Shown: in pieces, positions 12,806-46,036 of the stretch
Layout of the letters: the number at the start of each line of letters is the position of its first letter
How positions within the stretch are numbered: position 1 is the first letter of the stretch
DNA from: Malania oleifera
Lineage: Eukaryota > Streptophyta > Magnoliopsida > Santalales > Ximeniaceae
DNA: 64,000 nucleotides
Direction: 5' to 3'
Assembly: GCF_029873635.1 (NCBI RefSeq)
Contig: NC_080422.1
Span: 1,406,001 to 1,470,000 of the forward strand
Position numbers and translations under genes: made by a program
Notes under the pieces: model-generated
Seen by the model: only the letters and a program-made list of their open reading frames with translations
Database searches by the model: none
What the model was told of the DNA's origin: nothing

Positions 12806-14545
12806 AAAAATCAGCAAAAACACTCTCTCTATCCTCCCTACAGTTTCTCTCTCCTCTCTCTTCGATTTTGGATCCACTGTTCACCGGATCGACGATCTGA
12901 GGCCACCACAACGCTCCTGAGAAAGTTCTTTGCAAATCTACCGGAGCGGATCGTTGGTGGGGCAGAGTTGGAATTCATCCATGATTTAAGGTAATACTTT
13001 TTATGCAAAATTTGGTCTTACCGTAGTTATAGGAAATGATATTCATGGAAAAATACTGAAGTTTAGTTCTAGAAGTTGTTGTTTTCAGGGTGTTGAACAG
13101 GAAACCCTGCAAGTGCAGGACGAGTACATTTTGGGGGGGTTTTTTTCAGTTTCAGGTAAGGGAATAAACTAAAACAATTATTTTCCATGTAAATTATTAG
13201 TATTTATCAGTAAATTAATTTTCAGGAAAGCATGTATTATATTTGAATATTATTGAGAAAATGCATATTTGGGAAAATACTGCTGTTATACAGGAAATAT
13301 GATTTCAGAATGAAATGTACAATTTTACTCAGCATTGTGTGAAATGAATATTATTTTACATGATAAATATTAGGTTATGACAATTTTATGAATGAAGTAT
13401 GATTTTCAAAAGTTATGAAATATTGCGGTACGTTATACTCTCAAAATACATGATAAATGAATTACTTATTTAGAATGATATGTATGAAATATTCAGCGCA
13501 AGACCGTGATTGATAGTCAGCGCAAAGCCATGTTTTATGTATGATTTCGGGGTAAGGCCGTATTTATGAATGTTCGGCGCAGTGCCGCAAATATGAAAGA
13601 AACTGGCGCAAGGCTATATGTATGTATGTTATTTCAGAAAAGGCTATCAATCTATTTACACTAAACTTTATATTATCATGTATTATATATTATCAGAACC
13701 TGGATGTTAGTTTAGTTCAGTTATAGGAGCACGGAACCGTAGCTATACATATCAGATTACTATGTTCAGACTTGTGCTAACCGCCCCACAAGGGGGTGGG
13801 AGATGGATAGTCGATGTGGCTTTCAGTGTAGAGTTGTAGACGTCCACCTGGCGGTTTGGACTAGGGTGTGGTGGGCCCATCGTACTAACATACATTTTTG
13901 ATTCGACAGTGGTCGACCAACCATTGTCAAGTCCCGCCTTCGGGCTGCACAACCCATCATGGGGGGTAATACATGACATCAGCTAGCTATACATCCTGAG
14001 TGAATTTTCAGTATTATTAGTTATATCAGACATTTTATGAACTGTATGATTTATTAGAAAATACGAAAGTATATGATTATTTAGTATGTTATGATGAATG
14101 TTTTCAGGCATATGAAACGTACTGTATATGTATAATTGCACCAAATATTTATGTTGCCACATAACTGTGTTTATTTTATTTTCCCTTACTAAGAAGTGTC
14201 TCGCCCCTGAACATTAAATAATTTTCAGGAAACCCAGAAGGACCGGTGGATCGAGGCCGCCGTTGAGTTTGTTGTGCTACCCCAATAGAGGGTAAATTTG
14301 AACTACGATCAGGAGATTTTGATGTGGGATCCTAAAGAGATTTTTGTATTTTTGGGAGATTGTATATAAACACAGTGTTTTTTATTATGAATCTGGTATT
14401 ATGTATTTTGTGGTTATGAGAATGTGATTTACATTTACTGTTGCTTAGATTTCCGCTGTGAATGTCATGTGTCCCTATTGTCCATGCGGGTTGACCTTAT
14501 TATTAAATATGTTTTATTATATGATTAGATAAGCAGACCATTACA
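12806..14545 (+). mobile_element. Gypsy LTR remnant lacking its start
   Basis: The sequence begins abruptly after the Cassandra truncation, with the conserved CT-rich leader, then GCCACCACAACGCTCCTG, and ends GCAGACCATTACA at 14545. It retains intron-like GTAATA...TTTTCAG at 12991-13088 (98 bp) and GTAAGGG...TTTTCAG at 13156-14228. The palindrome cluster and TATA region seen in related LTRs are deleted. Repeats of the form CGGCGCAAGGCCG occupy 13495-13620. It has inserted in, or abuts, the leader of the minus-strand element at 14546. Confidence 0.82.
13495..13620. repeat. minisatellite of CAGCGCAAGGCCGT type
   Basis: Five imperfect units of about 27-30 bp each contain GGCGCA(A/G)(G/T)GCCG. 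It sits at the same relative position as the GGCGTACGGGCC array of other LTRs, although the unit sequence is different. A related array (TTACGGCCTCGTGCCGAACAT) is at 45300-45395. Confidence 0.75.
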
Positions 14546-16126
14546 TATACTCTGGTATGTACACATATTCACGCCTAACCAAGTCTACAAGACCTAGCAA
14601 CCTAGTCAGCTCAAATACCAAGTTGTCATGCCCTGAACCTGCGGATGGGCCCTAGGTGTGAATTTAGTAACCTAACCTGTCTATGTATCAATTAAAACAT
14701 ACATGATACTACAATGAACGAGGGTCTGACCCCGTGGGGTACACGTATACCCTATACACTTTCATATACACATACATACACATCACATACGCAGTGGAAA
14801 TGTTCTTTCTATACATACATCATACCATACCAGAGTCTATACATAACTAGAGTTTACACTACCAAAATACAGTACGTACCCCGGGTGTCTACAAAACCCA
14901 ACAATGACAACCCAGTTACAAAATCCATACTTACACAAGTACTATACACAGCTAACTGACAACCACGCTCCTGTTACGTTAGGACACTAGTGACGGCTAC
15001 TCGAAGGACTTGAAAAATATTTATATTATCGGGGTGAGACACCTCTCAGTAAGGAATAAAATAGGTTATATTAGTGTGTGACATACAAGTGTTATTTCAA
15101 CATAAAACATAACACAAAATAGTTCTAGTTTTTTCGCAATCCAGTTCCAATACATACGATACAAAACATACGGTTAGTGTCGTCACATTCTTCGGCCGAA
15201 ATCGGCCGCATTACACGAAGCACCTGATAACCTGGCATTAGCCAAAGCCCCACAGAGATATCGTTGCTAATACAGTGTCCACTCACACCCATTGGTGTCC
15301 AACTAGAATAAACAGGCGATATTTTACACCCTTGGATATAGAGTCGGACAGTCTTGCCCTCGGTATTTAGTCAAGACATGGCGTTTGCCCACTGTAATTA
15401 GTCGAGACGTGGCAAATTTCACAAAACTTGGAACAATTTTGGAACTCATGTTCCTATACCTCTCAGCTTATGATAATTAGTCATCACAGCTGTTTTCACA
15501 CAGCTAGAACATTTTACATACAACAGTTCATTCCACACTTATTTAGTATACAACAAATCGTATCATTTTCAGTTTGAAAATACATTTTAATACAAATATA
15601 GGTACAATCATCTCAATATCACAGTTTTATACAACATATGATTTTCCAACAGAAATAGAGATGATACCCGAAATCCCTGATTTTTCCCAAAACTCTAACC
15701 CGAAAATCTCATATTTTCACCCGATAGATTTTCTCAAATAAGTAGGAAAATCATACATACAATCGTAAACTAATGTTTAGCGATTCTGATTTCAAAAATA
15801 ACTGAGATAAATAAAATCACCTTACCTTTCTCCGAATACCAAAACCCAAACTCTACAGCTCCAAAACTAGGAACCGAGTTCCCAAAACTTAAACAACGAA
15901 GAACAATACTTCCTTGCACTACTATTCTCGACATATCTACTGAAACAAAAACAGATTCGGAGCCTTACCTCGATTTTGGGTTAAAACCCAAAAATCCTCG
16001 AAACGAAATTCTGATCAGCTATAAATGTAGAGATTCTCCTCCTGATCCACATAGCAACGTCGGATCGTCAATTCTAGCAATAAATAGCCTAAAATCCTAG
16101 AGAGGGAGAGAGGGTGTTCAAGTTAT

Positions 16127-16130
<4 letters not shown>

Positions 16131-16190
<60 letters not shown>
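16131..16190. repeat. (GA)n microsatellite
   Basis: About 28 GA dinucleotides in an uninterrupted run. On the LTR sense strand this is a CT-repeat just downstream of the TATA/palindrome region, where other LTR copies also carry CT-rich tracts (for example 36421-36442 and 46044-46084). Confidence 0.95.
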
Positions 16191-16192
<2 letters not shown>

Positions 16193-16254
16193 TTGATTTC
16201 TTAACTCTTAAGCAAGTGATTTAGATATTTATAACTTGGTTGACCCAGCCAGAC

Positions 16255-16460
16255 TTGTCGACGAGACGGTGTTCTCATCGATGAGCTGTAGAAGGAAGTT
16301 CATCGACACCAAGTTGCACTCATCGATGAACCTAAGATTTTAGGATTTCCCAAAATCCCTCGGTATCTCCTCGTCGACAGGCTACTGAATCTCGTTGCCG
16401 AGCTGCACAAGAGACTTCGTGGATGAGAAAAGAAGCCTCGTTGACGAGGCCTGCAAATTT
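16255..16460. repeat. palindrome cluster (TCGTCGACGA family)
   Basis: Roughly ten copies of the 10-bp palindrome TCGTCGACGA and CpG-decayed variants (for example CTCATCGATGAG, CTCGTTGACGAG) lie upstream of the presumed TATA region of the minus-strand LTR. Confidence 0.8.
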
Positions 16461-16528
16461 TTACCTTTTTAATTTTCCTTCTCTTTTCTTATTTATTTAA
16501 TATACCTATCTCGAGTCAGGTTCTTACA

Positions 16529-17011
16529 ACTATCTTGTATGTTTGTGCAAGGCCTGAGGTCCTTCTAAGGTCTTTTGAGTTTATTGCATCTACATGTATG
16601 ATATGTAGTGATTATTACGGACCTTTTCCTATATTACTATTACAGACCCGAATAAACATGAAGTAAATTACAACACACATAAATCTTCTATGTGTTTAGT
16701 CTTCAAGTCTTCATATGCCATTAAGAGATCTTGCTAGTAAAAGCGTGCACACAAACTTGATAAACATTAAATACCAGAGTATTTGCCATAATCAAAACTG
16801 GTTATGACCTATAAGGTCAACATTCTCCCATTTTTTGATGATGACAAATACATCATCCAAAAGTAGGTACAACCTGGAAAGGCTCCCCCTGACAATATGC
16901 GCAATGAGAATTCAGAAAGATTTATAAGTTCAAATATTTTCATATGTTACCCAATTTTGCCCTCTTCTCCCCCATTTGGCAACAACAAAAAGGGTTATAG
17001 GAAACATAAAG
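16529..17011 (-). mobile_element. Copia element 3' end fragment (LTR start plus upstream purine tract)
   Basis: On the minus strand, GGGAGAA at about 16829-16823 precedes an LTR-like start TGTTGACCTTATAGGTCATA at 16822. Upstream of it (16830-17011) are TTTGTCATCATCAAAAAATG and TTGCCAAATGGGGGAGAAG, the kind of sequence found before the 3' LTR of SIRE-like Copia elements. The LTR portion is cut at 16528 by the Gypsy LTR and the upstream side at 17012 by Cassandra. Confidence 0.55.
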
Positions 17012-17159
17012 TGTAATGCCCCAACTTGAGTCTGTCAGGGAGCACTGCGTCCCTCATCCTCCACCTGGACCAGACAATAGAGGGCGGGTCTTACCAGACT
17101 AATGACTGGCCCTATAGACCAACACATGTCCTTTTCAGTGTGTTTTATCCTCACTCACA

Positions 17160-17275
17160 TACTTCCTAAGAAAACTTCCTAGAAGGCCAGCCATCCCAAG
17201 ATTACTCCAATCTAAGCAAGTTTAACCGTGGGGTTCTTATAGGTAGGCTCCCGAAAAGAAAGGTGTACCTTATTA
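17160..17275 (-). other. 5S rRNA-like segment in the Cassandra 3' LTR
   Basis: On the minus strand it carries a box-A-like TTAAACTTGCTTAG and a box-C-like GGGATGGCTGGCCTTCTAGG. It is more diverged from 5S rRNA than the copies at 12140 and 12562. Confidence 0.78.
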
Positions 17276-18154: not shown

Positions 18155-18370
18155 CGTTCGTCGATGACATTGCATTTCGGAAGGGAAAAACAAAAGGGAG
18201 TTCAGCAGGATTTCGTCGACGAATATAGGGGATTCGTCAACGAAGGTTTAAGAGATTTCATAGACAAACACAAGGCTTCGTCGACGAGAAAATGCCGAGA
18301 GGGGTTTTTGAGTTGACTGAATTTCGTTGACGAAATTTGTGAAGGACTCGTCGACGAAGGTCAGACTCAT
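18155..18370. repeat. palindrome cluster (TCGTCGACGA family)
   Basis: About nine copies of TCGTCGACGA and variants such as TCGTCAACGA, TCGTTGACGA and TCATCAACGA. The differences are C-to-T or G-to-A at CpG, the pattern left by deamination of methylated cytosine. Confidence 0.85.
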
Positions 18371-19138
18371 CAACGAGTCCAACGGGTTTACAAATATGAA
18401 AAAATCCGATTTTAACTTAACAATTAAGAAATTTTCATTCTCTCTCTCTCTCCTCTTCGGTCCTCTCTCCTTCTTTCATCGATTTCAGGCCAGATTTTCG
18501 CCGAATCGACAATCTGAAGTCTCCACGACGCTCTTGGGGAAGTTCTCTCCAAATCTATCGGAGCGGATCGTCGGTGAAAGCAAGGAGGAAACCATCCCAA
18601 ATTCAGGGTAAGACTTTTTACTCAATTTTTGGAGTTTTGAAAGTTGAGAAAAGCGTTCTACGCATGGAAATATTAAAGTTTAATACTGAGAATTTTCGTT
18701 TCTAGGGGTCTTGTTTGGAAACGTTGGGAGTCATCCCTGAATTGAGATAAGGCTTTTAAGCCAAATTTGACTTAATGGTAGATATAAGAAATGTTATACA
18801 CGTTGAAATACTAGGGTTTAATTCTGCGAATTTTCAATTTCAGGGGTGTTGAGTTAAGAACCTTGCGGGTGCAAGGAAGAGTTTCTTAGGGGCTGTTCAG
18901 AGATCAAGTAAGGGGATAAACTAAGCTAGTTTTGTTTTTGAGAAAATGCTTTTATATATATATACTTAGCATTTGATTTACGGAAAATGTAAATGTTTAT
19001 ATATATGTTTTATATTTGCAAAATACTGTGAAAATGAACGTATGTTGAATATGTGGAAAATTTGTGGTGTGGCATGAGTAAAAATGTTGTGATATACTGT
19101 TTTTTGGGAATGTGGATGGTACGGATTTTTATGATGAA

Positions 19139-19350
19139 AACCGGCGTACGGGCCGAGATTTTTATGTGTAGCTAGCGTACGGGCCAGGCTATGTGATGTG
19201 ATTTGCTAGTGTATGGGCTGTGCTATGGGTAGCTGGCGTACGGGCCAGGCTATGTGATTATGTGGTTTGCCAGCGTATGGGCTGTGCTATGTGATTTGCT
19301 GGCGTACGGGCCGTGCTATGTTAAAATGTGAAATACCGGCGTACGGGCCG
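19139..19350. repeat. minisatellite with GGCGTACGGGCC core
   Basis: Seven or so units of about 28-34 bp each carry (C/T)(T/C)GGCGTACGGGCC(G/A) followed by TGCTATGTGATTTG-like spacer. It is the inverted counterpart of the array at 8810-9030. Confidence 0.88.
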
Positions 19351-20336
19351 ATGATTTTATGATACATGAATATATGTGAAATGATACAATTGATGTGAAA
19401 ATAAATGAAATGAGATATTTATGTATCACGGTTTCAGTATATGTATATGTTATCAGAACCTGGTTGGCTTGGTTTAGGCTAGCACTTGCACGGTACTATT
19501 GCTATGTGTCCATGGTCCTCGTGATCATGATATCTGTGTTAACACCGCTATACGGAGTGGTGTGAGATTGGATGGTCGATGTGGTTATGTTTGAGGAGTG
19601 TGCTGTTATCGCCCCTGGTGTACGGACCAGCTAGGTAGACCCATCGGACCTACAGACTGGACTATTAACTTGGCAGTGGTCGGCCAACCATTGTCGAGTC
19701 CCACCTTCGGGCCACACAACCCAGTCATATGGGGTAATACATGACAACAGCCAGCTAACCTACCAGGATTGTTTTATGTTATTATTATTATGATATGAGA
19801 TGGGATATGTTATGAAAATGCAGTATGTTCTGCCATGTTGATTTATATATATATATGTTTTCCCAGATTTGATGAAACAGTACTAAATGTGTTATATATG
19901 ATATATGTTGAACACGAAATTACTCATGTTGCCACACACTAGTATTAGTTTATTTCCCTTACCGAGAGATGTCTCACCCCTAAATTTTATACGTTTTCAG
20001 GAGCCCCTGATAGGAGAGTCGGAAAAGACCCGCTGATTTAGAGCAGTGTTTGCCCTCTTTGGAAGGGTAAGTTTTTGGTAGGGACAGTTAGGATTTTTTT
20101 GGGAATTGTCCCTAGATTTATTTTTGGGATGTATATACTGAGAGATAGTGTTTGTAGTACTCTGGTATGTGTTATGCACATTATGATGAGACGTATATGA
20201 TTTTATATTTTTTGCTGCGTAGGCTTCTGCTGTATGTTCTATTATATTCCTGGTACCCACGGGTCCGGGTGGATTGTGACCTGCTGAGCTGGTATGTGTG
20301 ATGTGTGGATTTGGTTTGATGCTGACTGATATATAA

Positions 20337-20337
<1 letters not shown>

Positions 20338-20392
<55 letters not shown>
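20338..20392. repeat. (AAT)n microsatellite near the LTR end
   Basis: About 17 AAT/ATA trinucleotides in the last 80 bp of the solo LTR. Confidence 0.95.
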
Positions 20393-23813: not shown

Positions 23814-23839
23814 TGTAATAACCTAAAAAAATTTTACAG

Positions 23840-24030: not shown

Positions 24031-24037
24031 TTGGCCT

Positions 24038-24045: not shown

Positions 24046-25754
24046 GCTAAAACTCGGAATTTTGAATGAAATTTCAGCATAGAAACCCTCTCTCTCTCAC
24101 GACCCCCCTCCCATTCTCTCTTCAATCCTGGCCCTATTTCTCGTCGGATTGAAGATCTGAGGCCACCACGACTCTCCTAGCGAAGTTCTCTGCAAGTTTA
24201 CCGGAACTGATCGTGGGGGAAATTGGTTTGAAATTCATCCCAAATCTAGGGTAAGGTATTTTATTTAGAATCTGCTTTCCCTAAAGTTATAAGAAGTGTT
24301 GTATACAGAAAAATACTGACATTTGGTTCTGGAGGATGTTGATTTCAGGGAGTTGATCTAGGAACCTTGTGGGTATAGGGCCAGAAATTAGTAGGGGCTT
24401 TTCAGATTTAAGGTAAAGGAAATATGTAATAAGCCAAAAAAAAATTAAAAAAATTTAATTAATAAAAATTATTAATCAATTAATTAGTTAAACATTATTA
24501 AATTAATGTATTAAATAAACAAGTAAAAAGAAATAGTATGAAAAAAATAATAAAACTAATTATGAATTAATTAATTAATTAATCATTATTGAATTAGTTA
24601 ATTAAATAAACAAATAAAAGGAATAATGTGGAAAAAAAATTGAAATAGAGATATTTATAAATATATATAAGGTTATTGTATAATATAAGTTTAAGTAAAT
24701 ATATATATATATATAATATAATATTAAAATAATATATATTAATTGTAATAAGATGGATTGGATTTCAATTTGAAATCCAATCCCTCATCTTCTTCTGTGC
24801 CTCTCTTTAGCTCTCAGTCCGTCTTCCAGTCTCCGTTATCTCCTTCTATCTCTGTCTCTCTCTCTCTCTCTTCGATTTCATCGGCCTAACGAGCGCCAAT
24901 CGAGAAACGGAAGGTTTCGTTGGATTCTTAACTCCGCCACCGACATTTCTACTGGAGGGATTTGTCGTGGGAGCGGCGTAGGCACCACTCCTAGGGAAAG
25001 GTATATTTTCCCTAATCTCTCAATTTCTCATTAAATCTGTAGTCAAATCAACGATCAGGCACTACCATGGGGTCCTAGTCGTGATCATCATCATTTTGAC
25101 ATAAGTAAATTTCCAATTGGAGTTTTCTAGGCCCCACTCCAAAGCGAAAGTGGGATTTGGAAAATTTGGTGAATTGACTATATTTAAGGATATAATTATT
25201 TATTTAGAATTTATGAGCCTAGAAAATATTTAAATAATATTTTATTTAAGGTTAATTTAATGGAATTAGGATTTTTGATTCAGGGTCCGGGTGAGCGCCG
25301 CAAGTATTTTTCGAAATCCCTATTGGCGTAGTTTAAGAAACCAAGTAAGGAGAAAAATATATATATAAAATCAGAATTTTTATGAATTTAACAGAAAATA
25401 AATTGTGTTATATATACATGTATATGTTTCGGTATGAGTTTAGAATGCCAACTGTTTAAATTATATTTTTTTTGAGTTTAGAGCTGTTTATTAGATATGT
25501 ATATGCGAAAATGAACTGATGAAAGTGGAAAATATTTTCAGGATAATTATGTAAGAAATGAAAGGTATTTTCGGTATATAAACGTTAAATGTTGGTTGGC
25601 TTATTTTACAGGAAATGTATGAATTTTAATGTTAAATTGTGTAGCATGAGATTCTGTGCAAATATATGTTAAATATATGAGATGCTGGTTAAGTAAGTAA
25701 TGTATTGTGAATAAAACATGATATGGACTATGGTGCTTGTGAGTGTTAATGCAA

Positions 25755-25922
25755 CCATGTAAACAACTGAAATATGTTGGGTAAACAGTTGAAAGATGTT
25801 GGGTAAAACAGCTAAAAGATGTTGGGTAAAATAGATGAAAGATGCTAGATAAAATAGCTGAAAGATGCTGGGTAAATGTGTAACAGCTGAAAAATGCTGG
25901 GTAAAACAGCTCAAAGATGTTG
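25755..25922. repeat. minisatellite of GCTGAAAGATGTTGGGTAAAA type
   Basis: About six imperfect units; the array continues at 27750-27810 on the far side of the nested LTR, which landed inside a unit. Confidence 0.85.
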
Positions 25923-27749
25923 TGTCACGCTCCGAACCCCGAAATGGGACCCAAGGGTGAAAATGTAATCTAACCTGTCCCTGTATCCGTTAAAACATCC
26001 AAAGATATAGTACAAAGGATAAGGGTCCGACCCCGTGGGGTTCCTAGGCACCCTAAACACATCCAAATATAATCATATACGCAGCGAAAAAAGGTCATTC
26101 TATATCAACATATACAGTACCATACCAGAATCTATACAAGAGCAGAACATGGCTCTATCAAAACCTACAAACGGGTGCCCAAACACATCTCAAAATGGCA
26201 ACCCACCAAAATACAGTCCTAGCACTTACTCAAGCGCTAACCGCAGTACACCGGCCACTACGCTCCCTACACCAGGACGCTAGTTCTGGTTACTCGAAGG
26301 ACCTGTAAAAATGTACATACAGCAAGGGTGAGACACCTCTCAGTAAGGAAGAACATAGGTTATATCGGTGTGTGGCATTTGAGTGTTATCATGATACAAC
26401 ATACACACAGTTAAATGCATTCCAGTACTAATTTCCACAGTGCATACAAGCACACATACACATACACATAATCAGCAATCTCGGTGTCATCACACCCTTC
26501 GGCCCTAAGCCGATCCGCGATAATCTAGCGTTGGCCCGTAGCCAACCCGCGAAGCACAACACCACCGACACATGGCTAGTCCCCGACTCCCATGGCATCG
26601 TACCGACACTAATTGGTGGATCCACACCCTTCGACCTGATCTGTCGGTATAGGCTCACACCCTCGGATATAGAGTCGGACACTCTTTCCTACGTGGCAGG
26701 TGATAAACACACGCCCTCGGATATAGAGCCAGACACTCTCAGTACCTGGAACAATTTAGAACCCCGTTCCTACTAGCATTTCAACATATCACACATACAT
26801 GCATGCTCATATAACCAAACAAACCACACCCATTTGGTAATCTAAATCATGTTTTTCTAAACAAATACAGTTTAAACAAAGTCAAGGCACGACCATCCCA
26901 ATAACAAAGTATAAATCAACATATACATAGGTTTTCATCAAAACCAGGGATGCAGCCCGTCGCCCCCTTTTTCCCAAAATTGTAATAATGAAAAACCCAT
27001 AATTTTCCCCGTTAGATCCCCTCAAATGAGTAGCCAAAACACACACAGGACCGTGAACCACAGTTCCACTGAGTCCGATTTCAAAAATAACTGATATAAA
27101 CACAGTTCCTCTTACCTCTTCCCTATAAAGAAAATCCCGAACTCCAAGGCCCCTAAACAGCGAACCGAGTTCCAAAACCTACAAATCACAGTACAGAATA
27201 TACTCACAAGACAGTTTCCTAAAAAACTACCAGATCAGAAATAAAAATCGAGCCTTACCTCGATTTTTTGCCAAAACCTGAAAACCTCCGAAATGAGATT
27301 CCGATCCGTAGAAGTTGTAGAGAATCCTTCCACAATCCTCGTGGTAGCTTTAGATTCCCGATTCCATCAACGATCGGCGAAGAAATCTAGAGAGCGAGAG
27401 TGTAGGGAGAGTTTTAGAGAGAAAGAGATATATATATATATATATTTGAGTTTTCTTAGCTTTGAAGTAAAGAGAAGTCTATTTATAGCCCCTTTGACCC
27501 GACCCAACTCGTCGAAGAAATGGTGTTCTCGTCGATGAATCTTCCACAGCCTTCATCGATGAATCAGTGGCCTCGTCAACGAATCTGAGATCATCGATTT
27601 TTCCGAGACTCCTCGGCTTCTCCCCATCGACGAGTCTCTGAATTTCGTCAACGAAAAGAACAAAGGCTTCGTCGACGAAATATGTCAATTTCCCAATTTG
27701 CCCCGCCCTTATATATTTAGACCTAGTTATCACGATTCAGGTTCTTACA
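25923..27749 (-). mobile_element. Gypsy solo LTR with TGTTG target duplication
   Basis: The 1,827-bp element runs TGTCACGCTCC...GGTTCTTACA on the plus strand, with TGTTG at 25918-25922 and 27750-27754. Same subfamily as 14624-16528. The palindrome cluster is at 27508-27690 and a TA/CT-rich stretch at 27425-27450. It is the third level of nesting inside the Gypsy 5' LTR. No coding content. Confidence 0.94.
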
Positions 27750-30421
27750 TGTTGGGTAAATGTATGACAGCTGAAAAATGTTAGGTAAAACAACTGAAAG
27801 ATGCTGGGTATGAAATGAAATGAAATGAAAAGGGAAATGAATGAAATGGAAATGAAATGTAAAATGTGAAATGTGAACAATGTAAAATGGGAAAGAGTCA
27901 CTTAAAGTGAAATGAAGTGAAATGTTAAAGTTATGAACATGAATATAGGTGAATGGTTGAACAATGACAGAAAGAATAATGTATTATGATATTAGCATTA
28001 TTTATGCTAGTAGAGCATGTTACGTTTGGGCGAGGCAAACTCTTCGCCCGAAGGCTTGCTAAGAAAGGCGAGTGCCCTGGTTGTATCAGGTGTAGCAGTA
28101 GGCTGCATAACGTGCTAGGGCAAAGGGAAACTACTTGTATGGGCGGGTAGATTTTCCTATTCTTGGGAGCCTTTGCCGGTAAATATTTGTATGAACTGTG
28201 TGAGTATGAGATCAATTTATCACTAGAGGGCTTACTGAGTAAGGTGAGTGCCCTGGTATGCTTGAGCTGTGACCTTTGGGTTGCCTAGGTATCAGAGCAG
28301 AGGGGTGCTACTTGTATGGGCGGGTAATCACCCCTATCCTCAGGTAATCTCGTGGGTTAAATCTTTTACATGTGTTTGATTAGGATCAGAGAATGGTTTT
28401 AGAAATTGTGTTAACGATTTTCAAATGTTAAATATTATGTTGTTATATACCTCATGTTAGCCACACGCTATGTTTAATATATTGTTTCTTCCCTTACCGA
28501 GATGTGTCTCACCTGAATATAAGTGTATTTTTTTCAGGATTTCCTCGAGATCGAGCTTAGGGAGCTCGAGAGTTTTTAGACTTTTTGAGAAGTATTAAAA
28601 GAAAGGGTATATATTGATAATACTTTGGGGAATGTAAATATTTTTGTTTTATGTCTCTATGTTTTAAGTCAGTTATGAAAGGAATGATTGTGAAAATACT
28701 GAAATGTGTTGGGAGTTATGTAGATTTATGGAAATGCAGGTGATGGATGATTATTATGGATTATAGATCAGAATTAGTAAACTCTAGTATTATGGTATTA
28801 TATGTATGGAGATTATATTTATATTTTCTGCTGCGTATATCTTGATTATGGATTATCAAGGATTTTATCAGGTATAACACATCGGACCCAAGTTTAAAGG
28901 TTCAGAGTGTTACAAAATATGCTATGCTAGAAATTTTTAATATATATATAGAATATTATGAATGTATATTTACAAGCATGCAGATCAAATTATTTTTCCA
29001 AAGAATTATGAATAATATCTTTATAGCAGTATTACAGAAATTGAGCATGAGATTGTGTTTACTCAAATGTGTGGCATGAGTTATTACAGTATAGTAAGTG
29101 GATTTTACAGTATTACAGATATTCATATATTTCAAATTATTAATAATGAATGAGACGTACAGTATTTCTCATAATAATATGATTTCCAAACCATAACACT
29201 CAGACAGATTTTATAGATATTACAAACAGATAGTACAAATATTACTGATAGATTATTTAGTTATAGATTATACAGAGATGACAGATATTATACACAGATT
29301 GTACATAAATTTTATACAGTTATTACAGATAGTACAGACAAAAATCACAGATGATATAGACAGATATTTCAGATAATATAGTTCAGAACTATAGTATTAT
29401 AGTTGTTTTTGAAATCATGTTAAAAGCAGCAAGATGATTATATATTTATATATATATAGTATTACATGATATCAGATCCCTGTGGAGATTACAAACAGAT
29501 ATATATAGCAGAGCACAGTACCATTGCTATTTTTAGACACGTGCAACCACGTAGCTTAGATAGTATGTGGATTCCGTCTAACCGTGCAAGGAGAGATTGC
29601 AGTCTCCCTAGCATGCTGGGTTGAGGTAGCCGGTTAGACGATGATAGAGGTTTAAGATGGTCTGGAGTGATTGCAGTGGGCTAGATTGATACAGATTGGC
29701 GGATGTACAGATATAAATTGACTTGGCTGGTAGGCCAACCAGAGTAAGTCTAGCCTACGGGCCACACAACCCTATCATGAAGGGATATATCATGATATAC
29801 AATCCCAGGGTATAGCAACAGTTCTTATGTACAAATATATCACACAGTAGTAGATTATATTATTATATTAGCAGTACCTTCAGATAGCAAATTCGGATAC
29901 ACAGTTATGTTTTAAATTATATTCCAGTTATTCTGTACAGTTTACCAGTTTTCTCATATTACAGTATTGGTATTATTTCAGTATTTTTAAATGATCAACT
30001 CAGCCGCCACACACTAGTAATAGCATATTTCCACTTACTGAGCATTGTCTCATCCTAGTGACTTAATGTTTTTCAGGAGATCCAGCTAGGCGAGCAGATC
30101 AGGCTTGCGGGTAGAGGTTGATTAGAACTGCCCTTTCTAAAAGGGAAGGTGTGTTTTGGGTATCAGTGGATTTTGGGGATTGTTCTCAAGGTTTTGATGT
30201 CGTCACTGAATATTTTGTATAGTAATTATATTTCAGAGCATTATAGTTTTCTGGTATTGTATATAGCAATTCCCAGCTTTGTACTCCGTTGTTTAGTTAT
30301 GTATAATGGACAGAGTTTCTTTAGTGCTCTTTAAGCCTGAGCTATTTTCAGTAATATTTCAATCAGTTGGTATTCACGATATAAAAAAAAAATGTGTAAT
30401 CAGAAGTAGGTCGTTACAATT

Positions 30422-30434
30422 TGGTATCAGAGCC
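30422..30434 (+). other. primer binding site for tRNA-iMet
   Basis: TGGTATCAGAGCC begins 3 bp after the 5' LTR end. It is complementary to the 3' end of plant initiator methionine tRNA, the usual primer of Tekay-type Gypsy elements. Confidence 0.92.
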
Positions 30435-30735
30435 TAAGTTGCTAGGTTCTATAGACTTTAGAATGCAGCGGGAACAATACCAAAAAATAGGAAAAGAATT
30501 TGAGGTTTGTTCTGTGGTCTATATACAGGATTTTCGTGGTGGTTTCTGTGTTTTTCCTGGGGTGACGATTTCAGGAAAACCATAGTAAACTATCGACGAG
30601 TTGTGTGTTTAGGTCGCAGGATTGGATTTTGGAGTAGGAGTGAGGGAAATAGTTGATAGTAAATTTGGGGTTTAATTGGATGGAGCAAAGTAGATCTGTA
30701 TAGGATTTTAAAATATATGTTTTGTGTATTTTTAG

Positions 30736-31917
30736 GATGGATTCGGGTAGCATTGGTACAGAAACTGGAGGTGACAAACCAGGACCCTCCAGTATGGGAG
30801 GTGGAGATACAGATGTCATACTACGCAGTATCACCCAGCAAATGATGGCTGAGATGGACAGGAGCGGAGGAGAGCGTGGCTGTCCGATCGAGTAGTTTAT
30901 GCGGATGAAGCCTCCTTATTTTGTTGGGGGACTTGACTTGATCGTAGCTGAGAACTAGGTTAGGAGATTTTTGTAGTGCTGGCCTGTACAGACGAGCAAA
31001 AAGTGGCATTTGCGTCATTTAACTTGACGAGAGAGGCAAAGCGCAGGTGGAGATCCGCGCATTTGATTGAGGAGTAGAGGCCAAATCCAGTGCCAGTATC
31101 ATGGAGTCTATTCAAGGAACTATTCTTCGAGCGATATTTCCCTGCTATCGTTCGGAGCGCAAGGCAGCATGGTTCATACACTTGTCTCAGGGGTTGATGA
31201 TGGTGACACAGTATGCGGCGCAATTTCTTTAGTTATACCGTTTCGCCCCACTTATAGCACCAGATGAAGAGAAAAAGGCAAGAAAGTTTGAAGAAGGTTT
31301 GAAAAAGAGTTTGTTCGAGCAAGTTATCAGCTTTCGGGCTCAGACGCTCACAGAGGTGGTGGATAGAGCCGCTATTATTGAGAATGGTATGCAGAAGAGT
31401 GCTGCATCTCAGGGTCAGAGAAAGAAGTCTACGCCTCAGGATTCACAGGCGAGCTCTAGCAGAGGGCCATGGAGAGGGGATCGATATAGAGGCAGTCAGG
31501 GACAGATGACGGGCCGTGGTGGACCTCAGGGTGGATAGGCTATTTCTACCTATCTTAGATATGGCCGCAAATACCCAGGTGAGTGCAGGATGGGTGAGGA
31601 TGTCTGCTACCGATGTGGGAGACCTGGACACCGATCTTGGTCGTGTCAGGGATTGCCAGCTTAGGAACCAGTCCGAGACCGTACCAGGGTGGTTATTAGG
31701 CATCCCGTGGAGGCCAGCAGAGGAATACTACACCAGCGAGAGTGTACATGTTGACGCCGGGTGACGCCGATGCAACTGGAGACGTAGTTACAAGTACCCT
31801 TACTGCTTTTTCATTGTTAGCTATTGTCTTATTCGATACAGGTGCCGCCCATTCTTTTATTTCTGTGGTATATGCTAAGTTAACGGGGTATGAGGCACAA
31901 TTATTAGAAATTGGATT
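30736..31917 (+). pseudogene. Gypsy gag and start of protease
   Basis: A start-like MDSGSIGTETGG at 30736 leads into a gag relic with several in-frame stops (e.g. after GGERGCPIE) and frame changes. A capsid segment KKSLFEQVISFRAQTLTEVV lies at about 31299-31400. A CCHC zinc knuckle, CYRCGRPGHRSWSC, is at 31605-31646. The aspartic protease follows at 31742-31917 with LFDTGAAHSFIS. The Copia LTR interrupts the protease at 31918 and the frame resumes at 33807. Gag would package RNA and protease would mature the polyprotein, but the reading frame is broken and the element is inactive. Confidence 0.88.
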
Positions 31918-36140: not shown

Positions 36141-38000
36141 TGTAATAACTTGAAAATTTCTTACAAGACTCGTTGACGAACACAGGGGTCTCATCGACGA
36201 GGGTTCTTCAAGATCTCGTCAACGAAGACCCATCTCATCGACGAGAAGATACCGAGAGAGGGTTTAAGGCAGACTGAAACTCGTCGACGAGGGTGGAGGT
36301 TCGTCGACGAACTTGACGAGGCGACGTGTCTTATCGACGAATCCGGCCTTATAAATAGCTGAAATTCAGAATTTTGATAGAAATTCAGAATTTTGATAGA
36401 AATTTCAACGCAGAAACCTTCCTCTCTCTCTCTCTCTCTCTCATGACCCCCTCACCTTCTCTCTTCGATCCTGGTCCCATTTCTCGCCGGATTGAAGATC
36501 TGAGTCCACCACAACGCTCCTAGCGAAGTTCTCTACAAGTCTACTGGAATTGATCGTGGGGGAAATTGGTTTGAAACTCATCCCAAATCTAGGGTAAAGT
36601 GTTTTATTTAGAATCCGTTTTCCCTACAGTTATAAAAAGTGTTGTATACAGAAAAATACTGATGTTTGGTTCTGGGAGATGTTGATTTCAGGGAGTTGAT
36701 CTGGGAACCCTGCGGGTATCGGGCTAAAAATTAGTAGGGGCTTTTCAGATTTAAGGTAAGGGAAATATGTTATGCTAGAAAATTTTAATATGTATATAGA
36801 ATATTATGAATGTATATTTACAAGCATGCAGATCAAATTATTTTTCCAGAGAATTATGAATAATATCTTTATAGCAATATTACAGAAATTGAGCATGAGA
36901 TTGTGTTTACTCAAATGTGTGGCATGAGTTATTACAGTATAGTAAGTAGATTTTACAGTATTACAGATATTCAGATATTTCCGATTATTAACAATGAATG
37001 AGACTTATAGTATTTCTCAGAATAACATGATTTCTAAACCATAACACTCAGACAACTTTTACAGATATTACAGACAGATTATTCAGTTATAGCATTAAGA
37101 TGTTATAGTAAGATTATACAGAGATGACAGATATTATACACAGATTATACAGATATTATATACAGATATTTCATACAGTTATTACAGATAGTACAGATAG
37201 AAATCACATATGATATAAACAGATATTATATATATATTTTAGTCAGATATTTTAGATAATACAGTTCAGAACTATAGTGTTTTGGTTGTTTTTGAAATCA
37301 TGTTAAAAGCAGCAAGATGATTATATATATACAGTATTACATGATATCAGATCCTTGTGGAGATTACAGACAAATATATACAGCAGAGCATGGTACCGTT
37401 GCTATTTTCAGACATGTGCAACCACATAACTTAGATAGTATGTGGATTCCATCTAACCGTGCGAGGAGAGATTGCAATCTCCTCAACATGCTGGGTTGAG
37501 GTAGCCGGTTAGATGATGATAGAGGTTTAAGATGGCCCGGAGTGATTGTAGTGAGCTAGATTGATATAAATTGGCGAATGTACAGATGTAGATTGACTTG
37601 CCTGGTAGGCCAACTAGAGTAAGTCCAGCCTACGGACCGCACAACCCTATCATGAAGGGATATATCATTATATACAGTTTTCAGGGTATAACAATAGTTT
37701 CTATGTATAGATATATCACACAACAGTAAATTATATTATTATATTGGCAGTACCTTCAGATAGAAAATTCAGATACACAGATATGTTTTAAATTATATTC
37801 TAGATATTCTATACAATTTTCCAGTTTTCTCAAATTAGAGTATCAGTATTATTTCAGTATTTTTAAATGATCAACTCAGCTGCCACACACTAGTAATAGC
37901 ATATTTCCACTTACTGAGCGTTGTCTCATCTCAGTGACTTAATGTTTTTCAGGAGATCCAGTTAGGCGAGCAGATCAGGCTCGCGGGTAGAGGTTGATTA
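36141..38000 (+). mobile_element. 3' LTR of the Gypsy element, truncated at 38000
   Basis: It matches the 5' LTR from its first base through GCGGGTAGAGGTTGATTA at about 37983-38000, then diverges abruptly. It retains the palindrome cluster (36165-36345), TATAAATAG near 36350, a direct duplication of AATTTTGATAGAAATTCAG near 36369-36405, and GTAAAG...TTTCAG at 36594-36691 (98 bp) plus GTAAGGG...TTTTTCAG at 36756-37952. The expected last quarter kilobase is missing. Confidence 0.9.
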
Positions 38001-39418
38001 TAGATAGTATACGAATAAATAATGATATTTTGTTCTGAAGGATGTTGTTTTAAGGGTGTTAAGCGGGGAACCCTACGGGTATAGAGCTAGAGTACAGTGG
38101 AGGCTTTTCAGAAATTAGGTCAGGGAAATATGCTATGCTAGGAGTTTTAATTGTACTATCAGAGATTTTATGTATATTTATATATGCCAGTTTATTATTC
38201 AGTTTCTATAAAATGAGAGTTTTTAATAAATGTGTGGCCTGAGTAGATGTTTACCTGATATAGAAATTATATAGTGTATAAATAGATATTCAAAAATATT
38301 TAACAGATAGATATAAATAGATTTTATCCAGTTTAGTATAATATAGTATTTACAGAAGGTCATGTTTTCCTAATGCCATAACACTCAGTTTATACAGTTA
38401 TAGCATCAAGACGCTATAGTTATGTTATTCAGACAATACAGTATTTACAGTACAGAATTATAGTGTTATGGTTATTTTGGAAACATGATCAAAACAGTAA
38501 AGATAATTATAGTATAAATATATATATATATATATATATATTTATACAGTATCAGATCCCTGTGAAATATTATAGACAGATACAGTTTACAGAGCACGGT
38601 ACCGTTGCTATTTACGAAATAAAGTGCAACCATATATCTCAGATAGTGTGTGGGTACCGTCAAACCATGCTCGGAGTGGATGCAGCTCCCCAGTTTGCTG
38701 GGTGGAGGGGGCCGGTTTGATGAGGCAACAGTCTAGTCCCGTGCCTAGGAGAGGATGCAGTTTGGCCGAGCTGAGGTAATGTAGAGTATAGTGACTTACC
38801 TGGTAGGCCAACCAGAGTTAAGTCCCACCTACGAGCCGCACAACCCTGTCATGAAGGGTTAAATCATAACGTATAGAGTTTTAGGAAAAAGCACAGTTAT
38901 TTATATGTATACAGTTTTATAGCATCTGATGAATATAATATGATATTAAAAGTATGAAAGATAGAAAGCTCAGATGATACAGTTATATTTTAAGCAATGA
39001 TAAATGTAAAATATATTTTTACTGATTTGTCAGTTATACAGTTTTGAATGTTATTATTATAGTTATGCAACTTGGTCGTCACATACTAGTAATAGCATAT
39101 TTCCACATACTAAGAGTCGACTCGCCCCATTATTCTAACATTTTTCAAGTGAGCCGGTTAGGCGAGCAGATCAGGCTCGTGGATAGAGAGACTTTATTGG
39201 CCTGTATGTAGGGTAAGTTGGTATAGGGTAGTTGAGTTTTTGGGGAGATGGTAGTGGTATATGTAAATGTGATATAATAAAATACTGAATTCTAGTATTG
39301 TATATATATATGTATATGGTTATGTGATTTATGTTTGCATAGGGGTGCCCATTACATACCGATATTGGAGTAATTTATAATTTGTTTTTTTTTTAAATGG
39401 AATAATATTTTGGGCGTT

Positions 39419-39421: not shown

Positions 39422-39454
<33 letters not shown>

Positions 39455-40679: not shown

Positions 40680-40693
40680 TAATAACCCGATAT

Positions 40694-41900
40694 CTAATGA
40701 TTGCGTTTCTGCCCCTCATAATTTAACACACCCCAAGACACAAACGAATGTGTGGCACCAGAATCAAAAAGTGCAATAACTTTAAATGAAAACATATTCA
40801 CCGTACCTGTTACCACATCTCCGGCCGCCTCAGCATCGCCCAACGTCAAAGCAAAAACCCTGGCTGGGGCCATATTCCTTTGCTGGCCTCCTCGTGGCGC
40901 CTGGCAACCTCCTCGTGCAAGTCTAGGAGTAGGAGCAGCACCCATCTGTGTCGGGCACTCCCTCATCATATGTCCTGGCTCCCTGCACCTGTAGCAGACA
41001 CCTCGCCCGGCACGACACTCCCCCAAGTGTCTCTTCCCATAAGATGGGCAAGCTAGAGATGGTTGTACACCCTGGAAACCGCGATTCCCGGTCTCCTGTC
41101 TCCAGTCTCTATAATAGCCACCTCTCTTCTATGAACCACGTCCAACCCCCTACTAGGAACCAGAAGGTATGAATCTCTTATTCTACCTCTGCTCCTCAGC
41201 CTCCAATCGCTCACCAATCTCTGCTATAGTGGCTCTATCCACTAGTTCAGAAAAATCCTGTAACTTCATAATCGATACCTGTTTGCATATTTCTCTCCTC
41301 AGGCCTCTTTCAAACTGTCGTACCTTATTCTCCTCATCTGGAATGATGTACAGGGTGAAGCGAGATAGCTCGATGAACCTCGCCGCATATTGTTGTACTG
41401 ACAGCTGTCCCTGCTTCAGATTCAGGAACTCCTCAATCTTAGCCTCCCTATACGAGGCTGGAAAATACTTGTCGAAGAATATTTCCTTAAACCGCTCCCA
41501 CGTCATCTCCATAGGTATAGTCTTCTGCTGCTCTAAAAGTTTCACTGCTGACCACCGTCTCTCGGCCTCTCCAGTCAGTCTGTAGGTGGCAAACAGTACC
41601 TTTTGCTCCTCTAAACACTGCAGCATTGCAAATATTTTCTCTACCTCCTGCACCCAATTTTCAGCAACTGCTGGATCTGTCCCTCCTGAGAAAGCCAAAT
41701 GACTCATGTTAATAAACTTCTCAATCGAACTACCGTGGCCTGCTGATAGACCACCTTGTTCCTTCGAACTCCTGGCAATTTTTGTCATAACCTGCTATGT
41801 CACGCTACGTAAAACAGCATCTGAATCACTACCCGCAGCGCCTGAGGGTCCAACACCCTCACTCCCACTAGCGTGGACACTACTGCCACCAGGGTCCATC
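40694..41900 (-). pseudogene. Gypsy gag, zinc knuckle and protease, minus strand
   Basis: Gag capsid lies at 41788-41183 (AENWVQEVEKIFAMLQCLEE, TWERFKEIFFDKYFPASYRE, LKQGQLSVQQYAARFIELSR), an uninterrupted run of about 200 codons matching the Retrotrans_gag domain. After a short disrupted stretch come the zinc knuckle CYRCREPGHMMREC and protease motif LFDSGATHSFVS (41026-40694). The leader from about 41900 to 42217 connects it to its primer site and 5' LTR. The frame break near 40700 and the truncated RT make it inactive. Confidence 0.92.
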
Positions 41901-42201
41901 CTAAAAAACAAGTAACTTAACTCAAAACCTCCTTCTCTATACATATCACTCAACTTATATAGTATATTTTCTTAATTAACTCGTCACTCCTGATCTTAAT
42001 TCAAGGTTCAATCCTGCAACCTAGATACCCAACCTGACGATAGTTTACAATGACTTTCCTGAAATCGTCACCCTAGGAAAATCACACAAACCACCACGGA
42101 AGTCCTACATCTAGACTACAAAATCAGACCTCAAATCCCCTTATCCTATACTCTGGTATTATTACTGCTGCACTCTAGAGTCTACAGAACCTAGTATCCT
42201 A

Positions 42202-42214
42202 GGCTCTGATATCA
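42202..42214 (-). other. primer binding site, minus strand
   Basis: On the minus strand, TGATATCAGAGCC lies 3 bp from the LTR start at 42218, one base from the tRNA-iMet complement TGGTATCAGAGCC. It fixes the LTR at 42218-46423 as a 5' LTR. Confidence 0.88.
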
Positions 42215-42607
42215 AACTGTAACGACCTCAAATTCTCAATATATAATGTAACAGATTAAATGAAAAATTCAACCCGAACCCGTGGGTAACGGGGATACTT
42301 GTCAATCACAGTAGAAACTTAAGCAGCAGCAAACATAAAATCTCGAACATCCAACCATAAAACATAATACCAGAGTTTACTATATCATCAAAATATTGTT
42401 ACTATATACAACCTCCAAAAAGTCAAAATAACACTAGGATCATACAACAAAATCTCCCGATCTTAGTTCAATGCTTACCCTTCTACTAGGGAAGCTTCAA
42501 TCACTCAACGGCGGCCCTAACCCGCCGGTTTCTCTAGATTTCCTGAAAATCATTTAATGTTCGGGGGTGAGACACTTCTCCGTAAGGGAAAATAAACTAA
42601 ATACAGC

Positions 42608-43743
42608 TGTAACGACCTTATGATTCATACCATTTTTTATTATTTTTTTGTATATATAAATATATATCCATATCCAAACCTAAGCAGCGGAAAAACATAT
42701 CATGCAACAATTTACATATTTATAATGCAATACTAGAATACTATATATACAGACCATAGTCACACAAAATACCCCTCCAGCATCATTAACTCAAAAATAC
42801 TCAGTTCTGACAAAAACTCCCCCTATAACTAGGGTGATCAAACAACTTTCTATTCGCGAGCCTGATCTGCTCGCCTAACTGGCTCACCTGAAAAATGGTA
42901 AAGTAATGGGGTGAGTCGACGTTCGGTAAGTGGAAATATGTTATTACTAGTGTGTGGCATCTAAGTTAAGAATACTTAAAAATAGTACTGAACTGTAATG
43001 CAATAAAAACATCTGTAAAGCATATTTTCCTTTCACACTTTAAGATATACTGTATTGTCTGTATTTTCAACTTTTCATACTGATAATATCATACTATACT
43101 CATCATATACTGTAAAATTGTATACATTTATATATTTATACTTTATCCCTAGGACTGTGTACGTCATGATTTGACCCCTCATGACAGGGTTGTGCAGCCC
43201 GTAGGCGGGACTTCATCATGTCGGCCCTCTAAATAAGTCAATAAACTCTACACTACCTCAGCCTGACCAAACTGCATCCTCTCCTAGGCTCGGGACTGGC
43301 TACTACCTCGTCAAAACCGGCCTCCTCTACCTAGTGAACTGGGAAGCTGCATACTCTCCGAGCATGGCTGACGGTACCCACACACTATCTGAGATATGTG
43401 GTTGCACTCTATCTGTATCTAACAACGGTACCGTGCTCTGTAATCTATATCTGTACTGTATCGATCTGTAATCTTTCCAAAGGAAATTGATACTATATAC
43501 ATATATACTCTTTTACTGTTTTCGCCATGTTTCCCAAATTATCATAATGTTATCTTTTTGTACTGTAATTACTATAAACTTTGTATGCTGTATCTGTAGC
43601 ATCTTGATGCTACCTATATTCTCTATTTGTATACTATGTATGTTATGGTAATAGGAAACATGGCATATTAAACTCTGCATATACTGTGCTGTATAAAGCT
43701 GTGATATAAATACTGATCTAGACAAAACTGTACCCATGTATAC

Positions 43744-43777
<34 letters not shown>

Positions 43778-44809
43778 GTTTCATGAAACTATTCATATAA
43801 AAGTTGTATATGCAAGCACATTTCTCTGTGAATATATATATGTATATCTATATCTGTATATCTAGTATAGTATGATTCATCATGAAAGATGTATACATTT
43901 CTTCGTTACATAAAAATCTACTTAGGCCACACATGTATTTAAACTCATATTATATAAATACTGTTTAATAAACTGGTATAAATATGTATCTATGAAGTCT
44001 CTGATAGCATTTTGAAAATCCCTAACATAACATATTTCCCTTACCTTAGCTTTGAAAAGCCCCTGTATATTTCTGGCTCCATACCCACAGGGTTCCTAGC
44101 TCAGCATCGTGAAAACAAAATCCCCTATAACAAAACATCAGTATTTTCTTACCTACAACATTTCCCATAACTGAGGGATAGACAAATATTGAGTAAAATG
44201 CCTTACCCTGAGATTGAGACGAAATTCAACCCAACTTTTCCAACGATCAGCTTCTGCAGACTTGCAGAGAATCTCGCCAGAAGCGTCGTGGTAGCTTCAG
44301 ATCTTCGATCCGGCGAGAAACAGGCCCTGAAACGAAGAGATAAGTGAGAGAGAGTCGTAGAGAGAGAGAGAGGAGAAAGAGAGGGGAGCGGATAAATGAT
44401 AAAAATATGAGTTTTTCCATTTTTATACTGCGGCCTTCGTCGACGAGACATGTCATCTCATCGATGAATCTTTCAATAAATTCGTCGACGAGTCCCGATA
44501 TTCGTCGACGAAATTCAGGCTGCCCCATAACCCCTCTCGGTACTTTCTCGTCGACGAGGCCTTGTATTTGTCGATAAATTTCGTTATGTACTCGTCGACG
44601 AAGCCCTGTATTCGTCGACGAATTTGCTTATGTACTCGTCGATGAAACCCTATATTCGTCCATGAATTCTGGCAATTTCTTGAAATTATTATTATCGTTA
44701 TTATCTCCAAAATGCAATTTCGTCGACGAAGTCTACTGCCTCCTTCTGTTCCTGTTTCTATTTTTCCTCTCTTTAATATTTAAATATCAATATTTTCTGG
44801 GTCGTTACA
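42608..44809 (-). mobile_element. Gypsy solo LTR with near-perfect target duplication
   Basis: The 2,202-bp element runs TGTAACGACCTTATG...GGTCGTTACA on the plus strand. Flanks are ACAGC (42603-42607) and ACAGT (44810-44814), one C/T difference. The host LTR reads continuously across it. The palindrome cluster is at 44430-44730. A 98-bp interval at 44206-44109 keeps the GTAAGG donor, but the acceptor reads CAC where CAG is expected. Confidence 0.9.
44430..44730. repeat. palindrome cluster (TCGTCGACGA family)
   Basis: At least eleven copies including several perfect TCGTCGACGA decamers, the densest cluster in the window. Confidence 0.88.
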
Positions 44810-45299
44810 ACAGTTGTGTGGCAACATGAATATTTAATGTAATTATACATATATAGTACATTTCAAATATCTGTAGACATTTATCATAACATACTGAATA
44901 ATCATATACTTTCATAATTGCTGATAAATCATATCGTACGTAAACATTTGTTATACTAATAATACTAAAAACATACCCAGGATGAATAGCTAGCTGGTGT
45001 CATGTATTACTCCCCATGACGGGTTGTGCAGCCCGAAAGCGGGACCCGACAATGGCTGGCCGACCACTGCCGAGTCAAATATGTCTGTAAGTACGATGGG
45101 CCCACCACACCCTGGTTCGGACTGCCAGGTGGACGTCCACACTCTACTGAAAGCCACATCGACTATCCATCTCCCTCCCCCTTGTGGGATGGTTAGCACT
45201 AATTAGATCATAAACATATGATCTATAAGCTACGGTACCGAGCCCCTGAATTGAACTAAACTAACATCCGGGTTCTGATAACATATAATACATGATCAT

Positions 45300-45395
45300 A
45301 TATATATAACATCATTACGGCCTCGTGCCGAACATATCATAATTACGGTCTCGTGCCGAACATAACATAATTACGGCCTCGTGCCGAACATGTCA
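45300..45395. repeat. 29-bp minisatellite, three copies
   Basis: Three units of TACGG(C/T)CTCGTGCCGAACAT separated by ATCATAAT-like spacer. Related in core (CGGC...GCCG) to the array at 13495-13620 of the same LTR subfamily. Confidence 0.88.
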
Positions 45396-46036
45396 TACAT
45401 AAATACGTTGTTCTGAAAATAATCATTTTATCATGCATTTATCATAATTATAATGTACTGTATACTTTCATAACTTCTCAAATCATACTGCATTCATATC
45501 ATAATATTTCTCCATGTAAAATAATATTCATGCCACACATTTACTGTATAAAACTATACATTGTATTATGAAAATCATGATTTCTGGCTTCTCATACATA
45601 TATACATGTTTCAGCGTAATAACAGTATTTTTCCCCAAATGTGCATTAATTTCATAATATTCAAATATCGTACATATTTTCAGGAAAACAGTTTGGTCAT
45701 AAATGATAGCAATTTGAGTGAAAGATAACTGTTTTAGTTTATTCCCTTACCTGACTGTTGAGAAAGCTCCTAAAATATTCTGGTCTACCCCCCCTAGGAT
45801 TTCTTGATCAATACCCTGAAACTGAAAACTTCCAGTATTAAACTTCAGTATTTCCATATGTACATCATTTCCTATAACTACTATAAGACCAAATTTGACA
45901 TAAAAAGTCTTACCTCAACTGAAGAATGATTTCCAATTTACTTTCACCAACGAGCCGCTTCGGCAGATTTGGAGAGAACTTCCTCAGGAGCGTCGTGGTG
46001 ACTTTAGAACATCGAATCGGCGTAAATCCGGCCCAA

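Follow-up and report, generated by a model that had tools for sequence, protein, structure and literature searches.

Genomic signatures of a probable spliceosomal intron in the long terminal repeat leader of Ty3/gypsy retrotransposons of Malania oleifera

Introduction

Retroviruses carry a splice donor in the leader, by which an unspliced genome and a spliced message arise from one long terminal repeat (LTR) promoter, and gag is read from the unspliced RNA. Here we analyse a window of 64 kb (contig NC_080422.1, positions 1,406,001 to 1,470,000, forward strand) from the 1.49-Gb, 510-contig genome of the plant Malania oleifera, in which LTRs of a Ty3/gypsy retrotransposon, probably of Tekay/Del type, share an interval of 98 nucleotides (nt) that is very probably a spliceosomal GT-AG intron of the transcribed LTR leader. 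As in retroviruses, one LTR promoter would give both unspliced genome and spliced message, whereas gag would here come from the spliced RNA.

Plant LTR elements are described in review as generally without introns (PMC12786077), and in Ogre, EVD/ATCOPIA93 and BARE the introns lie in or between the gag-pol coding regions (PMC6317226, PMC12786077). Splicing in these elements yields subgenomic messages beside unspliced RNA, as may be the case in M. oleifera; the introns described here belong instead to the LTR leader, and the putative third would remove the primer-binding site (PBS). Diaspora, a soybean Ty3/gypsy element near Athila and Calypso, resembles the present elements in its very long 5' leader; splice donors were predicted in its LTR in 2005 and their relevance was called unknown, and its authors were aware of no intron lying upstream of gag, whether in retroviruses or in LTR retrotransposons (PMC1142308). 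That case is a prediction only, whereas the present one, in a different clade, draws on comparative evidence and on LTRs that lack exactly the intron. CRM4TR, a set of maize tandem repeats of centromeric-chromovirus origin, has yielded complementary DNAs with a spliced untranslated region and one with a splice in the LTR (PMC3648361); these are transcripts of derived tandem repeats of the CRM clade, whereas the leader described below is conserved across transposing subfamilies. Tekay elements are absent from the expressed set in sunflower, where spliced isoforms are reported for other elements (PMC7730604). The main text of a survey of CRM elements (PMC3059260) contains neither 'splic' nor 'intron', and in open-licence PMC searches on introns in LTRs or upstream of gag, only the Diaspora paper and PMC12786077 were judged relevant among the papers listed.

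Results

The 98-nt interval and its copies

An initial annotation of the window had proposed a spliced LTR leader, on the grounds that eight intervals of exactly 98 nt begin with GTAA and end at an acceptor position. All eight were found where they had been placed, on the same strands, with a GT donor in 8/8 and a YAG acceptor in 7/8 (CAG or TAG in seven, CAC in one). They do not represent eight LTRs, since the intervals at 9561-9464 and 9423-9326 belong to a single LTR in which the intron is tandemly duplicated. A profile built from the eight intervals recovers all of them from the window, together with two further copies, one of them truncated and beginning inside the interval at 38007. The remaining copies are as follows; a slash marks an exon-intron border.

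36594..36691, plus strand: intron 1 of LTR 36k, 98 nt (TAGG/GTAAAG ... TTTCAG/GG)
24251..24348, plus: intron 1 of LTR 24k
12991..13088, plus: intron 1 of LTR 12k
18608..18705, plus: intron 1 of LTR 18k, first tandem copy
18706-18746, plus: mini-exon between the tandem copies of LTR 18k
18747..18843, plus: intron 1 of LTR 18k, second tandem copy, 97 nt, donor GT decayed to AT (the second of the further copies)
9464..9561, minus: intron 1 of LTR 9k, first tandem copy
9326..9423, minus: intron 1 of LTR 9k, second tandem copy
44109..44206, minus: intron 1 of LTR 44k, with a decayed acceptor (CAC)
45816..45913, minus: intron 1 of LTR 45k

In each of the eight, the A+T fraction is higher inside the interval (0.67-0.72) than in the 50 nt on either side (0.46-0.60). 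Between 24 and 36 nt before the end, most copies have TACTGAT, TACTAAA or TATTAAA. A branch site like CTGAC or CTGAT had been reported for several copies about 35 nt from the end; a TACTRA-like box is common there, and CTRAY itself occurs in some copies but not in others.

The same anatomy recurs genome-wide, with 8,287 first-look candidates for one query, the best 40 of which were scored. Thirty loci were taken from each of two subfamilies, 36 and 44, the former set including the window's own two LTRs. The interval measures 98 nt in 28/30 and 25/30 of these loci, respectively, and exon 1, interval and exon 2 can be aligned among copies. At intron 1, GT is present in 26/30 and AG in 25/30 copies of subfamily 36, and GT in 30/30 and AG in 26/30 copies of subfamily 44.

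The subfamily of LTRs 18k and 9k has intron 1 twice, with a mini-exon of 40-41 nt between, and of 40 scored genome matches to a tandem-intron query, 39 cover at least 468 of its 471 bases and one covers the last 408. Among 22 tandem-intron sequences (20 fetched of the 40 matches, plus LTRs 18k and 9k of the window), donor A retains GT in 20/22 and donor B in 20/22, with that of LTR 18k counted as a loss, and donor 2 in 22/22.

Constraint on the splice sites

The equal length of the copies reflects homology only, as the initial annotation had cautioned that it might; its further expectation was that splice signals would be kept against diverged interiors. We counted changes by parsimony on a tree of 106 leader pieces, comprising the 60 loci, two window LTRs, and the 22 tandem-intron LTRs as two pieces each. 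The 17 splice-core sites have 8 internal and 75 terminal changes, against 546 and 1296 at 318 other sites (Fisher P=1.6e-5). Per site, core and other positions change at 4.41 and 4.08 on terminal branches, and at 0.47 and 1.72 on internal ones (site permutation P=0.0002; permutation of contiguous windows P=0.0011). When windows are ranked by change, donor 1 falls within the lowest 6 of 330, and donor 2 within the lowest 2 of 329. A smaller tree of 66 pieces gives Fisher P=0.015, and the combined core has P=0.0036 in one reduced set and 0.0016 in another (0.014 and 0.011 by contiguous permutation). Between subfamilies 36 and 44, the majority base has changed at 0/16 splice-core sites and at 57/323 others.

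Within subfamily 36, splice letters decay at much the pace of their neighbours, with GT at donor 1 in 26/30 and donor 2 in 28/30 copies, and AG at acceptor 1 in 25/30 and acceptor 2 in 22/30, the last count including copies broken before acceptor 2. Such decay is expected if the insertions themselves are not under selection. The splice sites are thus kept in transposing lineages and decay like their neighbours after insertion, and the signal of constraint is carried by the donors, not the acceptors. The expectation of conserved signals therefore stands for donors and older internal branches; for acceptors taken alone the signal is weak or absent. Acceptor 2 reads AG in 54/63 rows, AA in 8 and a gap in 1, and the acceptor G is perhaps mutable, since CAG is a CHG methylation context.

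LTRs lacking exactly the first intron

The initial annotation had also suggested a search for LTRs precisely without the 98 nt, and three were found, in at least two lineages. The search used a 33-nt pattern of the spliced exon 1-exon 2 junction, which fits the exonic flanks of 25/30 subfamily-36 and 0/30 subfamily-44 copies. It has three genome matches (L101, L102 and L103), each with 2 mismatches and no indel; the reversed pattern has 0. In the blastn pairs that were checked by hand, exactly 98 nt are missing from L101 and L102 relative to L042, and from L103 relative to L034, L036 and L052, the unspliced relatives matching on both sides of the missing piece. A gapped alignment view placed the gap poorly, and the evidence for the junction comes from the pattern matches, which are ungapped, and from the blastn pieces. 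By hand count, exon 2 remains 64 nt long in L101 and 63 nt in L103. An acceptor-2-like site follows about 1.2 kb on in all three; at donor 2, L101 and L103 have GT and L102 has AT.

L101 is followed by a PBS and L102 by a gag start. Because these two are related copies (91.8% alike, 7.1 kb apart) they count as one lineage, and L103, which is 70% alike to L101, as a second; among the loci listed, most of the closest relatives of the three belong to subfamily 44, with about 70-80% likeness. L101 and L102 run in the same direction and possibly form a tandem LTR-internal-LTR-internal array.

Leader anatomy and upstream ATGs

Read in the direction of the LTR, U3 and a TATA box are followed by a CT-rich stretch, exon 1, intron 1, and an exon 2 ending in AG/GTAAGGG, and then by about 1.2 kb of A+T-rich sequence ending in TTTTCAG/G. 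After exon 3, which ends in AGG/GTAAG or GTAGGT, come the LTR end, the PBS, and TTTTTAG/GATGGA where gag begins. Exon 2 has 63-67 nt in seven window LTRs, exon 3 has 63-69 nt in five, and intron 2 has an aligned length of 1034-1372 nt in subfamily 36, a spread due partly to indels, with some copies interrupted. The leader probably has three introns, of which intron 1 is the first and smallest; the other two are proposed from signals and anatomy. The relevant features of the window are:

36141..38000, plus: LTR 36k, cut at 38000, the 3' LTR of an element whose 5' LTR starts near 23814 (self-comparison and sequence)
36692..36755, plus: exon 2 of LTR 36k, 64 nt, a length found in 29/30 subfamily copies
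36756..37952, plus: putative intron 2 of LTR 36k, A+T-rich, 33 ATGs (TAAG/GTAAGGG ... TTTTTCAG/GAG)
24413..30076, plus: putative intron 2 of LTR 24k; just past its donor sits an inserted LTR element (about 24426-28913) that looks unrelated
near 30423, plus: PBS of the 24k element, upstream of putative acceptor 3
30734..30739, plus: putative acceptor 3 of the 24k element, AG at 30734-30735, directly before the gag ATG at 30737-30739 (TATTTTTAG/GATGGA)
13156..14228, plus: putative intron 2 of LTR 12k, 44 ATGs (TCAG/GTAAGGG ... ATTTTCAG/GAA)
14229-14291, plus: exon 3 of LTR 12k, with donor 3 at 14292 (GAGG/GTAAAT)
18908..20000, plus: putative intron 2 of LTR 18k, 59 ATGs, followed by exon 3 at 20001-20066 and donor 3 at 20067
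8165..9262, minus: putative intron 2 of LTR 9k, 54 ATGs, with donor 3 at 8097
42888..44044, minus: putative intron 2 of LTR 44k, 35 ATGs; this LTR looks like a solo LTR that has inserted into LTR 45k
42543..45750, minus: putative intron 2 of LTR 45k, split by solo LTR 44k (TCAG/GTAAGGG ... ATTTTCAG/GAAATC)
41901..42478, minus: putative intron 3 of the LTR 45k element, 578 nt (AAGG/GTAAGC ... TTTTTTAG/GATGGA), from donor 3 in the LTR to an acceptor directly before the gag ATG at 41899-41897, containing the LTR end and a PBS near 42214

A donor-3-like word was found by a narrow word search in 21/26 of the subfamily-36 copies listed, usually as GTAGGT (in one of them elsewhere in the sequence), and also in the 12k, 18k, 9k and 42.5k pieces of the window. 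Both elements of the window have YAG/GATGG where gag begins, as do 4/5 PBS-bearing copies among 20 fetched.

Upstream ATGs are concentrated in the introns. In subfamily 36 the mean per copy is 30.2 in intron 2, 0.77 in exon 1 and 0.40 in exon 2, where dinucleotide shuffles of the two exons give 1.67 and 0.63. Counts in exons against introns 1 and 2 are 1 and 47 in LTR 12k, 0 and 62 in 18k, and 1 and 56 in 9k; with exon 3 uncounted they are 2 and 38 in 44k, and 1 and 35 in 36k. The putative third intron would hold 7-8 further ATGs and the PBS. Because splicing would thus rid the RNA of some 30 or more upstream ATGs and of the PBS, spliced RNA is probably the gag message.

Several other features of the leader were recorded. 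Two LTR insertions are nested inside intron 2 of older LTRs, namely 42613-44828 (minus) in LTR 45k and 24426-28913 in LTR 24k. At 42888 (minus) and in L042, L043, L060 and L101, a donor-like GTGAGC or GTAAGC abuts acceptor 2 (TTTTTCAG/GTAAGC), an arrangement that has the look of a recursive splice site. A GC-rich hairpin lies soon past acceptor 2, at 37966-37984, 14244-14262 and 28551-28569 on the plus strand and at 42509-42527 and 8123-8165 on the minus strand. Its stem letters differ among LTR families, and a 6-bp stem with a 7-nt loop forms in 3/7 sequences folded, with a similar form in two more; the 44k copy prefers another pairing and the 18k copy folds weakly. Folded singly, these exon-3 hairpins are not significant (z -0.08 to -1.55). 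The U3 region has several near-palindromic words like TCGTCGACGA, many of them mutated, at 36150-36350, 18200-18400, 44440-44700 and 46150-46340, and intron 2 of the 18k/9k subfamily has GC-rich tandem words like GCGTACGGGCC at 19140-19350 and 8840-9030.

The inserted element in LTR 24k shares part of this plan:

24426..28913, plus: diverged LTR element, with an exon 2 end CCAA/GTAAGG at 25345 and acceptor 2 at 28536-28537
ending at 28607, plus: exon 3 of this element, 69 nt (AAGG/GTATAT)

Its leader has no blastn match to other window LTRs at E<=1e-8, and its first intron could not be pinned down.

Element identity

The element is a Ty3/gypsy LTR retrotransposon, with Retrotrans_gag, zf-CCHC, RVP_2, RVT_1 and RT_RNaseH domains, and with a PBS (TGGTATCAGAGC) just after the LTR end GTTACA or a decayed form of it. 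An SH3_Tf2-1 match (E=2.6e-23) directly precedes a weak Chromo match (E=0.0038; 17.5 bits, below the cut-off of 25.1). The weak chromodomain match and the general look of these elements point to the Tekay/Del clade as a candidate placement. Elsewhere in the window, an open frame at 49663-50193 (plus) with a PAM2 motif (E=2.8e-6) is probably part of a host gene.

Discussion

Constraint on splice signals, together with LTRs lacking exactly 98 nt, supports the earlier proposal that the LTR leader is spliced. That intron 1 is real we hold with high confidence, and the leader may well be spliced today. Transcription would start past the TATA box in U3 and run through exon 1, which is CT-rich, intron 1 (98 nt, present twice in one subfamily), an exon 2 of about 64 nt, an intron 2 of about 1.2 kb and an exon 3 of about 66 nt, after which a third intron would probably reach from the LTR across the PBS to an acceptor touching the gag ATG. 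The unspliced RNA would be the usual template for replication, because a spliced template would yield LTRs without introns; the spliced RNA would probably be the message for gag. The R-U5 of a new LTR is copied from the template RNA at its 5' end. Intron-less LTRs are thus the footprint expected of templates spliced at intron 1 only, and their rarity, for which the sole denominator is the set of 8,287 first-look candidates, agrees with the view that the genome RNA normally stays unspliced. The fuller proposal, to which we assign about even chances, is that three serial leader introns, two inside the LTR and the third from LTR to gag ATG over the PBS, sort the RNA: their removal would make the gag message, the PBS and a full LTR would be kept only by RNA left unspliced, and rare reverse transcription of partly spliced RNA would leave the intron-less LTRs.

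Several results weigh against this account. Acceptor 1 taken alone is ordinary, with 212/332 windows as low (the two reduced sets give P=0.02 and 0.45), the test of acceptor 2 was negative (7/15 against 180/393, P=0.62), and the six GT/AG letters alone reach only P=0.07-0.08 on the 106-piece tree. Donor 2 alone gives P=0.48 in one reduced set and 0.005 in the other. A donor-3-like word occurs in only 5/30 subfamily-44 copies, in three of these directly at acceptor 2, and donor 3 is decayed in the window's 24k copy. Moreover, the intron-less loci number only three, found with a pattern that fits none of the 30 subfamily-44 copies, and although probably losses they may represent the ancestral state.

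The failure of acceptors to show clear protection, and the lack of donor 3 from most copies of one subfamily, would suit a by-product, in which host machinery splices intron 1 from LTR transcripts with no role in gag expression. We regard this as unlikely, if worth keeping in mind, given that donors are protected in transposing lineages, and that the distribution of ATGs and YAG/GATG at the gag start point towards a function. A more sceptical account holds that the 98-nt spacing descends from a common ancestral LTR, with GT and AG there by chance and no splicing at all. Copies do align from exon 1 through the interval into exon 2, decay within a subfamily is much the same for splice letters as for adjacent bases (terminal rates 4.41 against 4.08), and acceptors alone have no clear constraint; however, common descent leaves the protection of donors on internal branches, the LTRs lacking exactly the interval, the further GT-AG intervals of the leader and the concentration of ATGs in introns to coincidence, and we consider it very improbable. 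Equally remote is the notion that the intron-less LTRs are ordinary deletions or the ancestral state, the GTAAG boxes serving, for example, transcription or packaging: only three loci are concerned, and short G runs at the borders (AGG/GT ... AG/GG) could aid deletion, but two lineages only 70% alike have the same base-exact junction, with exactly 98 nt absent relative to their relatives and exon 2 left at 64 nt (L101) and 63 nt (L103).

A spliceosomal intron in the LTR leader, and more tentatively the sorting of RNA by serial introns, bears on a question posed with Diaspora in 2005, namely whether introns occur upstream of gag. One LTR transcript must serve as both genome and message, and a spliced leader would, if true, be a simple switch between the two; it would also explain how gag is produced despite leaders of about 2 kb with dozens of upstream ATGs. 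LTRs that lack exactly the intron offer a trace of leader splicing that is readable in the genome. Further, such LTRs could donate a promoter, a 5' exon and a splice donor to neighbouring host genes.

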